From positions 124,001-188,000 of the forward strand of contig NZ_RYFD01000002.1 in NCBI RefSeq assembly GCF_004138135.1: 64,000 nt of DNA, read 5' to 3'. This DNA is from Candidatus Oscillochloris fontis (GTDB taxonomy: Bacteria; Chloroflexota; Chloroflexia; Chloroflexales; Chloroflexaceae). The position numbers were made by a program, and so were the translations under genes. Below the pieces are notes generated by a model. It made no database searches, was not told the DNA's origin, and saw nothing but the letters and a program-made list of their open reading frames with translations. Below, piece by piece: positions 6,317-63,113 of this stretch (position 1 is its first letter; each line of letters begins with the position of its first letter).

Positions 6317-6470
6317 TAGAGGCGCATCACGGTGCGCCCCCTATACACCTCTTGGGGCTGCGCCCCAAACCCATATTTGTGCTGGTGTGGTTGGCCGCGA
6401 AGCGGCCAACCACACCAGCACAATATTCGTTTTCATGGGAGCCTGCGGGCCCCACACCCCCGATTCCCGT
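6317..6470. repeat. Intergenic palindromic repeats, including family C hairpin with its own arm sequence
   Basis: First comes a short GAGGCGCATCACGGTGCGCCCC palindrome-like stretch (given here only by its ends at 6319-6341). Then a family C unit: GGGGCTGCGCCCC, followed by a long near-perfect hairpin at 6373-6425 (arms with GTGCTGGTGTGGTTGGCCGC, loop GAA). It lies between convergent genes and could terminate both. Nothing coding is seen. Confidence 0.7.
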
Positions 6471-16441: not shown

Positions 16442-16535
16442 CGACAAACACTCACGAACTGGACGTACACACGATCAAAACGTGTACGGCATGTTTGTCC
16501 TCCTTAGCGCGAGAAGGCAGAAACGATCAACAACG

Positions 16536-16670
16536 AGGCAGGCTTCCTGGCTTCTGACCTGATTATCGGTCAGTCACAGTTGCGGCACAGCGCTGGACTC
16601 ACACCAGCTTCCACCTTTACGCCCTAGCATCCGGGCTGTTACGGGTCACCTCGTCGGTATCAACTTGGAT
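16536..16670 (-). promoter_or_regulatory. Cobalamin (B12) riboswitch aptamer
   Basis: Read on the minus strand the leader holds, in order, GGTGGAAGCTGGTGTGAGTC, then CAGCGCTGTGCCGCAACTGT (the B12 box core), then GTCAGAAGCCAGGAAGCCTG. These are the conserved pieces of the cobalamin aptamer in the right order and spacing. With the terminator at 16416-16441 it should shut off btuFCD when B12 is abundant. Confidence 0.92.
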
Positions 16671-16757: not shown

Positions 16758-17125
16758 GGGGGCGGCTTCGCCGCATAGGCATTCGGTTAAACCCGAAGGT
16801 AGCACCGGCTTCCAGTCGGTCGGTGGCGCATCGTAATCGGCGAGAAGCCGGTGCTACCTTCGGGCGTGCGTAGGGGCGCGTCGCGACGCGCCCCCCGGCG
16901 CGATGATCGGGCTACCGCACCGCTTGGGAATGCCATGGGGCGCGTCGTGACGCGCCCCTACGCGGTATTCCTTAACCGAACGCCTATGCGGCTTCGCCGC
17001 CCCCGAAAATCTTTTTTGTTGTTTTTTGGCGGCTACGCCGCCAAAAAACAACAAAAATTGGGGTTTGGGGCGCAGCCCCGTGGAAGGCACAAACACGGGG
17101 CGAGCATCACGCTCGCCCCGTATCC
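16758..17125. repeat. Nested composite of palindromic repeats
   Basis: The gap between the B12 riboswitch and the next gene holds no gene. A 33-bp inverted repeat (16758-16790 and 16972-17004, ending TTCGGTTAA) encloses a perfect 21-bp inverted repeat (16792-16812 and 16844-16864, core GGTAGCACCGGCTTC) and two GGGGCGCGTCG palindromes (16874-16894, 16937-16959). It is followed by a family C hairpin (17012-17056) and a GGGGCGAGC palindrome (17098-17120). It looks like successive insertions of repeats into repeats. Confidence 0.75.
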
Positions 17126-17754: not shown

Positions 17755-17890
17755 TAGTGGGGGTTCGGGGGCGGCTGTGCCGCCCCCGAAAATCTTTTTT
17801 GTTGTGTGTTGGCGGCTACGCCGCCAACACACAACAAAAATTAGGGTTGGGGCGTAGCCCCAAGGGCTTTGCCCATGCCCTGTACGCAGG
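17755..17890. repeat. Palindromic repeat, family C (copy with GTTGTGTGTT arms)
   Basis: It contains CGGGGGCGGCTGTGCCGCCCCCG, a hairpin at 17795-17840 with arms GTTGTGTGTTGGCGGC and their exact complement, then GGGGCGTAGCCCC and the partial end GGGCTTTGCCCATGCCC. It is intergenic and has no coding content. Confidence 0.8.
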
Positions 17891-28390: not shown

Positions 28391-28500
28391 GTAGCGACGC
28401 AATATCTTGCGTCGCCGTTGCGTCGCCGTAGGTAGAGACGCAATATCTTGCGTCGCCGTTGCGTCGCCGTAGGTAGAGACGCAATATCTTGCGTCTCTAC
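28391..28500. repeat. 41-bp tandem repeat ending in a palindrome
   Basis: Two copies of a 41-bp unit (28391-28431, 28432-28472) are followed by a partial third (28473-28500). Each begins GTAGAGACGCAATATCTTGC; the last copy is the complete palindrome GTAGAGACGC...GCGTCTCTAC. The stop codon of the peptidase gene (28501-28503) directly touches it. Confidence 0.88.
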
Positions 28501-29676
28501 CTACGGCATTGCCACCGTGATCGTGCGTATCGTCGTCCACGGCCCGGCGTTGCCCACCTGATCCAGGGGTTGTACGCGCACCACATAGGTACCCGGTGCA
28601 AGGGTTGGGGTTTTGACCAATGCCTCTTCGCTGAACCAGACATCCTCACCTTCGGGGTCGGTGCCCACATAAATGCGGTACCCGGCTAACCCGGAGTGAG
28701 CATCCTCAACGTCAGGCCAGACGACAATCGTTTGGCTACCCGCATTGAGTTGCAGATCGGGTTGGGCTTGCGGGCTGGTCGGCGGGGTTATATCGTAGCC
28801 TACCGGGCCATAACTCGCCACGGTCTGCTTCCCATCTGGCCCCCAGACGCGCACGTAGAGCGTGTGCATGCCCTCACCTACCATACTCAGGTCTGCGTAG
28901 CCATCAACATTCTGCGGGAACATGGGTGCATCGGCGCTCGGTTCCACATCCCACATCTGGCTGAGACCGCCACCGGCCCAATTGGTGGTAAAGGCGATCC
29001 GCTGATCCTGGTTGTACCAGGTGTTAGGCTGGGCATCGGTCAGAAAGGTGATTTCAGGTGGCTGAATCGCCATCGCCGTCATCACCGTGCCCTGATGCTG
29101 ACTACAGCCACCAACTTCGGGCAGGACGTAGCCCTCGGCAAAACTGAGCGGCACCGACTTTTTGCCACTCCAGCCATCACGATTGGCGGTATAAGCGGTA
29201 AAATGGAGGTGGGGAATCCCCGGTGAACCACGGTCGCCCGCGTAGCCGAGAACTTCACCAGCCTGAAAGACCCGACCCGATTCGGTACTGACCGCACGGC
29301 TCAGGTGGGTATACATCGTAAAGAAGCGGTCGCCGTGGCTCAGAATGAGCGTCCCACTCCGGGCCTCCCAGTGCCAAATTTGGCCAGATGCCGCAGCACG
29401 GATCGGGGCATCATAGGTTGGGCCATTCACCTGGACAAGATCGAGCGAGTAGCGATCCCAGGCATTGTGGGTGCCACAGGCATAGCCCTGGATGATCTTC
29501 CATTCTTCGCCCGGCGGAGTAGGTAGAATGAGTTGTGGGGCAGCGGAAACTGATGTGGGAAGGGCCAGCGTACTGAAGGCGAACAGGGCCGTCAGCCAGA
29601 GGAGCAGTGAAGTAAAGTGTGTGCGACGAAGCTGGGGGGCGCGACTGCTCGCAAGAGTCATACGGAGACTCAGCAA
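28501..29676 (-). CDS. Secreted M23 (LytM) family metallopeptidase
   Basis: A 391-residue exported protein: signal peptide (about 1-45, ending SVSA), an M23 peptidase domain (residues 50-190: GTHNAWDRYSLDLV, ILSHGDRFFTMYTHL, and the zinc-binding HLHF), and two C-terminal Ig/fibronectin-like segments (WYNQDQRIAFTTNWAGGG; GYRIYVGTDPEGE). It probably cuts peptidoglycan peptides or acts as a non-catalytic cell-wall binder. I keep the TTG start at 29676 because AGGAGG sits exactly six bases upstream; the next ATG, five codons in, has no such site. Confidence 0.82.
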   Translation of the reverse strand: MLSLRMTLASSRAPQLRRTHFTSLLLWLTALFAFSTLALPTSVSAAPQLILPTPPGEEWKIIQGYACGTHNAWDRYSLDLVQVNGPTYDAPIRAAASGQIWHWEARSGTLILSHGDRFFTMYTHLSRAVSTESGRVFQAGEVLGYAGDRGSPGIPHLHFTAYTANRDGWSGKKSVPLSFAEGYVLPEVGGCSQHQGTVMTAMAIQPPEITFLTDAQPNTWYNQDQRIAFTTNWAGGGLSQMWDVEPSADAPMFPQNVDGYADLSMVGEGMHTLYVRVWGPDGKQTVASYGPVGYDITPPTSPQAQPDLQLNAGSQTIVVWPDVEDAHSGLAGYRIYVGTDPEGEDVWFSEEALVKTPTLAPGTYVVRVQPLDQVGNAGPWTTIRTITVAMP

Positions 29677-30391: not shown

Positions 30392-30500
30392 GGGGGTTTT
30401 TCTCTGATGTTGGCGGCTTCGCCGCCAACATCAGAGAAAATAGCGGGTCTGGGGCGCAGACCCAACCGTGGGTTTGAAGGTGGCAGCCCCAAGAACGTTG
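30391..30500. repeat. Palindromic repeat, family C (copy with CTCTGATGTT arms)
   Basis: A hairpin at 30397-30440 has arms TTTTCTCTGATGTTGGCGGC and their complement with a TTC loop, followed by GGGTCTGGGGCGCAGACCC. It separates the nucleotidyltransferase gene from the FHA gene and may terminate the former. Confidence 0.8.
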
Positions 30501-30526
30501 CACATGCCAAAAAAGAGGAAAAACCG

Positions 30527-31276: not shown

Positions 31277-31532
31277 TTTGGGGCTACGCCCCACACCCAC
31301 AGGGCATGTGCAAAGTCCTTGGGGCTGCGCCCCAAACCCCAATTTTTGTGGTGTTTTGGCGGCTTCGCCGCCAAAACACCACAAAAAAAGATCTTCGGGG
31401 GCAGCGCAGCCGCCCCCGAACCTCCACCGGAGGTGACTTTGCACATGCCCTGCCCACACCAGCACAACGCTCTTTTTTCGTGGGGGCCGCAGGCCCCCAC
31501 GCTCCCGCTACGGCGGTATTCCTTAACCGAAC
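31277..31532. repeat. Palindromic repeat, family C (best-preserved copy) plus short neighbours
   Basis: The element proper runs 31302-31450 between inverted ends GGGCATGTGCAAAGTC and GACTTTGCACATGCCC. Inside are GGGGCTGCGCCCC, a perfect hairpin at 31343-31388 (arms GTGGTGTTTTGGCGGC), and GGGGGCAGCGCAGCCGCCCCC. Further small palindromes (GGGGCCGCAGGCCCC) and a CGGTATTCCTTAACCGAAC word follow. It lies between convergent genes. Confidence 0.85.
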
Positions 31533-51619: not shown

Positions 51620-51710
51620 TTTTAGGGCTACGCCCAAAACCCCGATTTTTGTTGTTGTGTGGCGGCTACGCCGCCCCCAAACCTCCACCGAAGGTGATGT
51701 TTTCAAACAT
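51620..51710. repeat. Family C repeat, half copy
   Basis: GGGCTACGCCC, then one hairpin arm (GATTTTTGTTGTTGTGTGGC) and GGCGGCTACGCCGCC, but the second arm is missing. The end CCTCCACCGAAGGTGATGT matches the end of other copies. To the phnD gene the DNA is A+T-rich (51710-51790) and may hold a promoter (CATAAT near 51763). Confidence 0.7.
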
Positions 51711-62778: not shown

Positions 62779-62872
62779 GGGCAGTCCATCCCTGGTAGTC
62801 TTGTGGTAACGTCATTCCTATTATACCAAGGTGAAAGATACTGTAGAGACGGCCCGGCGGGCCGTCTTAGAG

Positions 62873-63022
62873 CATGGGCAAAGTCCTTGCGGCTTCGCCG
62901 CTTGGGGCTACGCCCCAACCCTAATTTTTGTTGTGTGTTGGCGGCTACGCCGCCAACACACAACAAAAAAATATCTTCGGGGGCGGCTGCGCCGCCCCCG
63001 AACCCCCACCGGAGGTGACTTT
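62873..63022. repeat. Palindromic repeat, family C (full copy)
   Basis: Ends GGGCAAAGTCCTTG and GTGACTTTGCAGACGCCC. Inside: GGGGCTACGCCCC, a hairpin at 62924-62970 with arms TTTTTGTTGTGTGTTGGC, and CGGGGGCGGCTGCGCCGCCC. It fills most of the 335-bp gap between divergent menF and the next gene; no gene is seen there. Confidence 0.85.
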
Positions 63023-63113
63023 GCAGACGCCCCCCGAACCACCACCGTACTCTACTCACAGAAGCGTGTGTATGTGTATAATAGAGGGTAGTATAAACAT
63101 AGAGGAATCTTGC

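Follow-up and report, generated by a model that had tools for sequence, protein, structure and literature searches.

The family C repeat that an earlier note placed at 31302-31450 of the window (the whole stretch of 64,000 nucleotides that was analysed) is the inside of a 153-bp element at 31300-31452. It is a MITE, a short mobile DNA element of a photosynthetic bacterium that codes for nothing, with 18-bp inverted ends (CAGGGCATGTGCAAAGTC), 10-bp target duplications and no gene. The element, its parts and the related copies in the window are the following.

31300..31452, + strand: complete element (MITE), 153 bp, the feature of the earlier note
31300..31317, + strand: left terminal inverted repeat, CAGGGCATGTGCAAAGTC, 18 bp
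31435..31452, - strand: right terminal inverted repeat, complementary to the left one at 18/18 positions
31290..31299, strand not applicable: left target duplication, 8/10 identical to 31453-31462
31453..31462, strand not applicable: right target duplication, degraded
31319..31335, strand not applicable: left GC hairpin, TTGGGG..CCCCAA
31343..31387, strand not applicable: central 21-bp hairpin (T5 + N10 + GGCGGC) with the 3-nt loop TTC
31348..31357, strand not applicable: variable 5' arm, N10 = GTGGTGTTTT
31373..31382, strand not applicable: variable 3' arm, N10, perfect complement of the 5' arm
31394..31420, strand not applicable: right GC hairpin, loop GCA
31420..31434, strand not applicable: small hairpin ACCTCC-ACC-GGAGGT adjoining the right end
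62868..63034, + strand: second complete element, 167 bp, arms GTTGTGTGTT, left module 14 nt longer
17764..17882, - strand: element without its far end, with a right-type hairpin (17764-17790), central hairpin (17796-17840) and terminal repeat (17865-17882)
17013..17057, strand not applicable: central hairpin (GTTGTTTTTT); the element is truncated and lacks terminal repeats
30397..30441, strand not applicable: central hairpin with C-type arms (CTCTGATGTT) and a single degraded end at 30495-30509
51646..51690, + strand: one-armed copy in which the right half of the right hairpin follows the left arm
6377..6423, strand not applicable: related perfect hairpin with a GGCCGC core, a partial relative only

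The central hairpin has the layout T5-N10-GGCGGC-3-nt loop-GCCGCC-N10'-A5, and the 153-bp element is predicted, as single-stranded DNA, to be closed by its ends and to carry four hairpins (-67.3 kcal/mol, z -13.3). The hairpins described earlier at 17013-17057, 17796-17840, 30398-30440, 31343-31387 and 62925-62969 are all perfect, as are the proposed inverted ends, with 18-bp arms at 31300-31317 and 31435-31452, and the core GGCGGCNNNGCCGCC has 14 matches in the window at one mismatch or less (1.3 expected, maximum 4 in 100 shuffles). The core that was said to be common to seven loci is present at six of these; the hairpin at 6377-6423 has the core GGCCGC-GAA-GCGGCC and no T5/A5, and has only the left GC module in common with the elements. 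In addition, the earlier list of arms is corrected in that GTTGTGTGTT is present twice. A second palindrome type, with the core GGCCGC-NNN-GCGGCC and different perfect outer arms, is observed at 6377-6423 and around position 2068 of locus L014. A perfect 19-bp palindrome (GCCGTAGGTAGAGACGCAA..) is found at 28466-28507, and a similar sequence (AGACGCAAGATAT) occurs in other genome loci.

The genome of the window (G000) is a 4.46-Mb draft in 139 contigs and contains well over a hundred copies of the MITE. At least 40 near-full-length copies were recovered by DNA search (the best 40 of 418 first-look candidates), and the end motif has 85 + 85 matches in the whole genome at one mismatch or less, against 0 for the reversed-pattern control. 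Among the fetched loci, 66 elements have paired ends; 45 of these are 150-153 bp long, one is 167 bp (62868-63034) and the other 20 are 62-123, 196 or 380 bp. A direct repeat of 10 bp (11 bp in one case) with at most one mismatch flanks 44 of the 66, and for one insertion (L011) an empty counterpart was recognised by eye in an Oscillochloris MAG contig (L147). Since the variants have ends, modules and duplications in common, their origin from a few unrelated insertions, which the earlier note had held up against its own reading, is excluded. Element DNA is matched in 24 of the 61 genomes searched among relatives, G000 included, and the end pattern occurs in GTDB genomes mainly in Oscillochloris MAGs, with scattered single matches elsewhere, among the matches listed. 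The element is without a match in either the phage or the plasmid collection, and an origin from phage or plasmid was rejected on this ground. In the same way, a structured RNA family of Rfam was rejected, as no Rfam match is present at the element; four Rfam matches lie elsewhere in the window. A cobalamin riboswitch is seen at 16520-16668 on the minus strand (50.3 bits). An intrinsic terminator was also rejected, because the stem has T5 on its 5' side and A5 on its 3' side, the reverse of a terminator.

The ends of the MITE point to the ISAs1 family of insertion sequences, which makes target duplications of 8-10 bp. Transposases of this family (NF033564) score over the cut-off in 15 of the 41 family genomes searched, and in nine of 30 fetched loci (L185-L189, L191, L199-L201) the transposase match lies between CAGGGCnnnnGCAAAGTC-like ends; many others of the 30 are without such ends. 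The ISAs1 element at L186 (1327 bp) has identical ends (CAGGGCTTGAGCAAAGTC) and a 10-bp duplication, and the MITE end matches both of its ends at 17 of 18 pattern positions, one position being free. An ISAs1 remnant in the Chloroflexales strain ZM16-3 (L167, 86.5 bits) has one end identical to the MITE end over 18/18 positions. The MITE thus has CAGGGCnnnnGCAAAGTC ends in common with ISAs1 insertion sequences and 10-bp target duplications in common with L186, and differs from them in being 150-153 bp long and non-coding, with no transposase found in its own genome. In the profile search of G000, a draft of 139 contigs, no ISAs1 transposase was matched, and the gene could lie in a gap of the assembly. 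To judge from these ends, the MITE was probably spread by an ISAs1-family transposase; as the transposase is found only in relatives, it is from these that we infer the parent.

Reading outward, the right end of the element (31420-31452) and of full copies has GGAGGTGA, followed by 8 nt and an ATG. The GGAGGT at this end sits in the small hairpin, and the arrangement resembles a possible outward translation start. Frames from this ATG have a median of 11 codons, compared with 20 in other frames, and seven of 43 reach 100 codons; by eye, some of these seven run into genes that probably start later. At L013, L015 and L019, elements lie just upstream of genes that are in frame with the element ATG; judged by eye, the products of these genes resemble a threonine dehydratase, MurE and a membrane protein. 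In addition, the -10-like motif TAYAAT occurs within 45 nt outside an element end in nine of 130 flanks, compared with 0.9 expected from sequence 150-600 nt away, a control that includes GC-rich coding sequence. Elements may lie near promoters at the loci of this genome.

The arms of the central hairpin match almost without exception. In an alignment of 45 copies from the window's genome (A1, with the 167-bp window element left out), the outer 15 pairs (T5 + N10) are Watson-Crick in 674 of 675 cells, while eight of the 15 pairs vary. In the same elements, mismatches occupy 72 of 810 cells of the terminal repeats and 35 of 536 cells of the right-hand hairpin. By pair counting, eight pairs of the central helix have changed on both sides with 99.6% of cells paired, and the whole structure has 81 cells changed on both sides, compared with 27.1 in shuffled alignments (0/500 reach 81) and at most 21 in slid controls, which upholds the earlier claim of covariation. 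G-U pairs are found in only one of 450 N10 cells.

This picture was extended with a pattern scan of the genome that was anchored on a single arm, giving 166 + 175 = 341 arm matches (control 1 + 1), of which the first 100 were listed, so that the hairpins of the genome are a sample. From 74 of these first 100 matches, 37 arm pairs were formed, all 37 with identical N10. When the second arm was left free, 67 of 102 hairpins were perfect over 21 bp, 16 had one mismatch, one had two and three had three. In the remaining 15 an arm is lost, cut, foreign or hybrid; these have at least five mismatches and were dropped from the mismatch rates, leaving 87. In these 87 hairpins with at most three mismatches, N10 is mismatched at 1/870 positions, the GC core at 10/522 (Fisher 4e-4 against N10) and T5/A5 at 16/435 (Fisher 2e-7), the core and T5 rates being underestimates, since one arm had to carry T5 and GGCGGC unchanged to serve as the anchor. 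The random arm mismatches that the earlier note took as speaking against its reading are thus rare in N10 and present in the core, the outer T5/A5 and the hybrid copy L215.

The arms are also diverse, with 35 N10 types among 88 hairpins of this genome; five relatives add another 29, and their arm sequences are mostly different from those of G000. In 70 hairpins of these relatives (4/74 candidates with more than three mismatches were dropped), mismatches are found at 8/700 positions in N10, 8/420 in the core and 22/350 in T5; here, N10 is less clean and, the contrast being weak, not clearly below the core, though below T5. The 5' arms are rich in G and T (298 of 350 bases over the 35 types of this genome), and G or T makes up more than half in 61 of the 64 arm types of G000 and its relatives and fewer than half in none. 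Eight other perfect palindromes of the genome have no such skew (70/144). G/T-rich 5' arms occur on both DNA strands.

Target duplications are identical at the start, and the mismatches gathered since then give the age of each insertion. In the 33 copies whose duplications can still be recognised (13 of 46 elements have none and were left out), the duplications are mismatched at 16/330 positions and N10 at 1/330 (Fisher 2e-4), and N10 is perfect in 12 of the 13 copies that have one to three duplication mismatches. N10 is also perfect in 45/102 hairpins that have one or no recognisable end, and several of those without ends look, by eye, like plain truncations (L335, L328, L304, L306 and 17013 in the window); the 24 perfect-N10 hairpins without ends belong in part to a C-starting class whose ends may differ. 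As the arms are perfect in copies with diverged duplications or without ends, perfect arms do not need ongoing mobility. Among the fetched relatives, no insertion common to the species was found (L246 and L292 look like separate insertions), nor was a pedigree or common insertion in which one rewriting event could be seen directly.

The loop and the mutation spectrum give two further views of the process. The loop is TNC or its reverse complement GNA in all 46 oriented copies and in 86 of 91 hairpins of a second set. Among the 46, 28 have TNC and 18 have the inverted GNA, and both orientations occur within one arm type, as in GTGGTGTTTT, with TTC in six copies and GAA in six. GNA triloops are known to form mini-hairpins of high stability in DNA. 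In a minimum spanning network of the arm types, which is a minimal hypothesis only, 20 of 26 single-step double changes in this genome are of the transversion type, 13 of them G/T, and six are transitions. The background, taken as minor alleles in the ends and the right spacer, has 31 transitions and 11 transversions (Fisher 6e-5 against the double changes), and in the relatives 10 transversions and seven transitions are counted among double changes. On a tree of the elements without the hairpin, event counts are rough, as the tree is poorly supported, with 3/42 inner branches starred. Point mutations under which the structure is kept would leave G-U intermediates and transitions; transversions are seen instead, which argues against that route.

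Several copies deviate from the standard layout. The copy at 51644, described earlier as having lost an arm, does lack it and is not singular: it is one of eight one-armed elements (51646 in the window, L051, L216, L226, L230, L317, L318 and L319) in which the left arm runs directly into the right half of the right-hand hairpin. These carry eight different N10, seven of which are known from full elements, which suggests that deletion between the pair of GGCGGC..GCCGCC motifs has recurred; the 73-bp forms (L033) look as if they came from a deletion of this sort. In L215 the two arms, GGTGTTGTTT and one resembling GGTAGTGTTT, differ from each other and are uncorrected. Arms that start with C form a class at L325, L338, L321 and L333 whose flanking motif is another one (TTTAGGGCT..CCCTAAA-like), perhaps a different MITE that has the central hairpin in common.

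The earlier note had left the choice between selection for structure and a copying mechanism that makes perfect palindromes, for example template switching. A copying mechanism is favoured here and structure selection less so, because double changes occur without wobble intermediates, the loop is inverted and the arms of truncated copies are perfect. It has been described that template switching at short inverted repeats homogenises the arms and inverts the spacer, and that repeats with template switching have shorter spacers than other repeats, according to the available text (PMC8604942). It has also been proposed that intrastrand switching can give rise to compensatory changes of several bases at a time, with G and U found on the 5' side, as far as the accessible part of the source goes (PMC8794818). 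In the MITE, arms are homogenised while control pairs decay, and the spacer is inverted with the arms kept (18/46). As these are the two published marks of the process in the text available, replication template switching is favoured over selection for structure as what keeps the arms matched, and is considered somewhat more probable than all else together. From the perfect arms, the joint variation and the loop flips, we infer template switching as the agent.

In the proposed mechanism, a MITE with ISAs1-type ends would be spread by an ISAs1-family transposase, and in its single strand the terminal repeats would pair to close a stem that carries four hairpins. Replication template switching would be especially frequent at the central 21-bp hairpin with its 3-nt loop, in one of two modes. 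In one, the nascent strand would fold back through the GC core and copy its own 5' arm, making the 3' arm its exact complement; in the other, the polymerase would jump to the opposite strand before the loop, so that the loop is inverted too. Mutations in N10 would either be erased or be written into both arms, and mismatches would survive in the core that serves for priming and at the outer points of return. That core mismatches survive and those of N10 do not would follow from fold-back priming at the GC core. Some observations stand against template switching. The excess of transversions is not predicted by plain point mutation followed by copying; biased handling of G-T mispairs would give it. 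The right-hand hairpin, which also has a 3-nt loop, is much less corrected. In addition, the arms of L215 are uncorrected and the N10 of the relatives is less clean. As a possible extension, put forward tentatively, the hairpin may be a self-rewriting DNA unit, in which fold-back on the 5' arm combined with biased G-T mispair handling would let transitions cycle back, let the 5' arm drift to G/T and let only transversions become fixed jointly.

The main alternative is selection on the central hairpin as a structure, in RNA or in single-stranded DNA, with arms that drift by compensatory mutation and with removal of imperfect hairpins. The constant stem length, T5 and GGCGGC, the nearly invariable TNC/GNA loops, the covariation statistics and the stable DNA fold (z -13) all agree with this. 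However, G-U intermediates in N10 are almost absent (1/450 cells), the double changes are mostly unreachable via G-U, and the GC core is more often mismatched than N10, the opposite of selection for stability. Truncated remnants also keep perfect arms, and with 341 arm matches each hairpin would need selecting, which leaves this reading rather unlikely. Selection could instead act through mobility alone, if the hairpin must be perfect at transposition and the copies are young, as the perfect target duplications of many copies would allow. Against this, N10 is perfect in copies with diverged duplications and in remnants without ends, the ends and the right hairpin have diverged in copies with perfect N10, and no ISAs1 transposase is detectable in the genome, so that this explanation is improbable.

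Even less probable is that gene conversion or recombination moves a few old arm types around among the copies, the two arms travelling as a unit. The same arm types are indeed found on copies with different flanking modules, and L215 looks recombinant, but shuffling cannot make new perfect types, and the 88 hairpins of one genome comprise 35 types, those of five relatives mostly others. The REP-type element moved by a Y1 transposase (REP/RAYT), which the earlier note had suggested looking for, is given hardly any credence. Palindromes and a high copy number would fit it, but the genome has one partial, weak Y1_Tnp match (24.8 bits), and the element has 18-bp ends and 10-bp target duplications; to our knowledge, REP/RAYT (IS200/IS605-like) elements make no target duplication.

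In many respects the family resembles known systems. Prokaryotic MITEs, as described in the available text of a review, are likewise short, with inverted ends, direct repeats that wane with age and a stable fold; here, in contrast, the central palindrome varies freely in arm sequence yet stays perfect (PMC10969869). The same text contains no mention of ISAs1, hairpin or Chloroflexi. Quasipalindrome or template-switch mutation in yeast and Escherichia coli likewise homogenises arms and inverts spacers at short inverted repeats with short spacers, in the parts of these papers available, whereas many natural copies of one mobile element with dozens of arm types are seen here (PMC8604942, PMC7202029). 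Template switching as proposed for the evolution of RNA hairpins would likewise give multibase compensatory change in one event, and the model in the accessible text accounts for G-C and U-A pairs that have their G or U on the 5' side, as in the 5' arms of the MITE (PMC8794818). That proposal concerns rRNA and microRNA; the MITE is a mobile element of a bacterium, is non-coding and has G/T-rich 5' arms on both DNA strands. In the literature searched on ISAs1 MITEs, on Chloroflexales repeats or MITEs, on bacterial MITEs with compensatory hairpins and on bacterial template switching with spacer inversion, this MITE family was not found described. For the rewriting process, yeast and E. coli provide precedents; a covarying palindrome with many arm types in a MITE is judged to be new.

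The natural evidence for hairpin rewriting is the interesting part of this MITE. Covariation is the usual ground for accepting that an RNA structure is functional, and in this family it is better explained by a mutation mechanism, with the target duplications and end repeats as internal clocks in every copy. If the tentative self-rewriting reading is true, the perfect arms, the G/T-rich 5' arms and the transversion-heavy double changes would be explained at once, and perfect covarying palindromes could arise genome-wide in a bacterium without a selected structure. If template switching does keep the arms matched, covariation in bacterial intergenic palindromes would need a template-switching control, and the MITE family would be a natural test bed for the frequency and reach of template switches.
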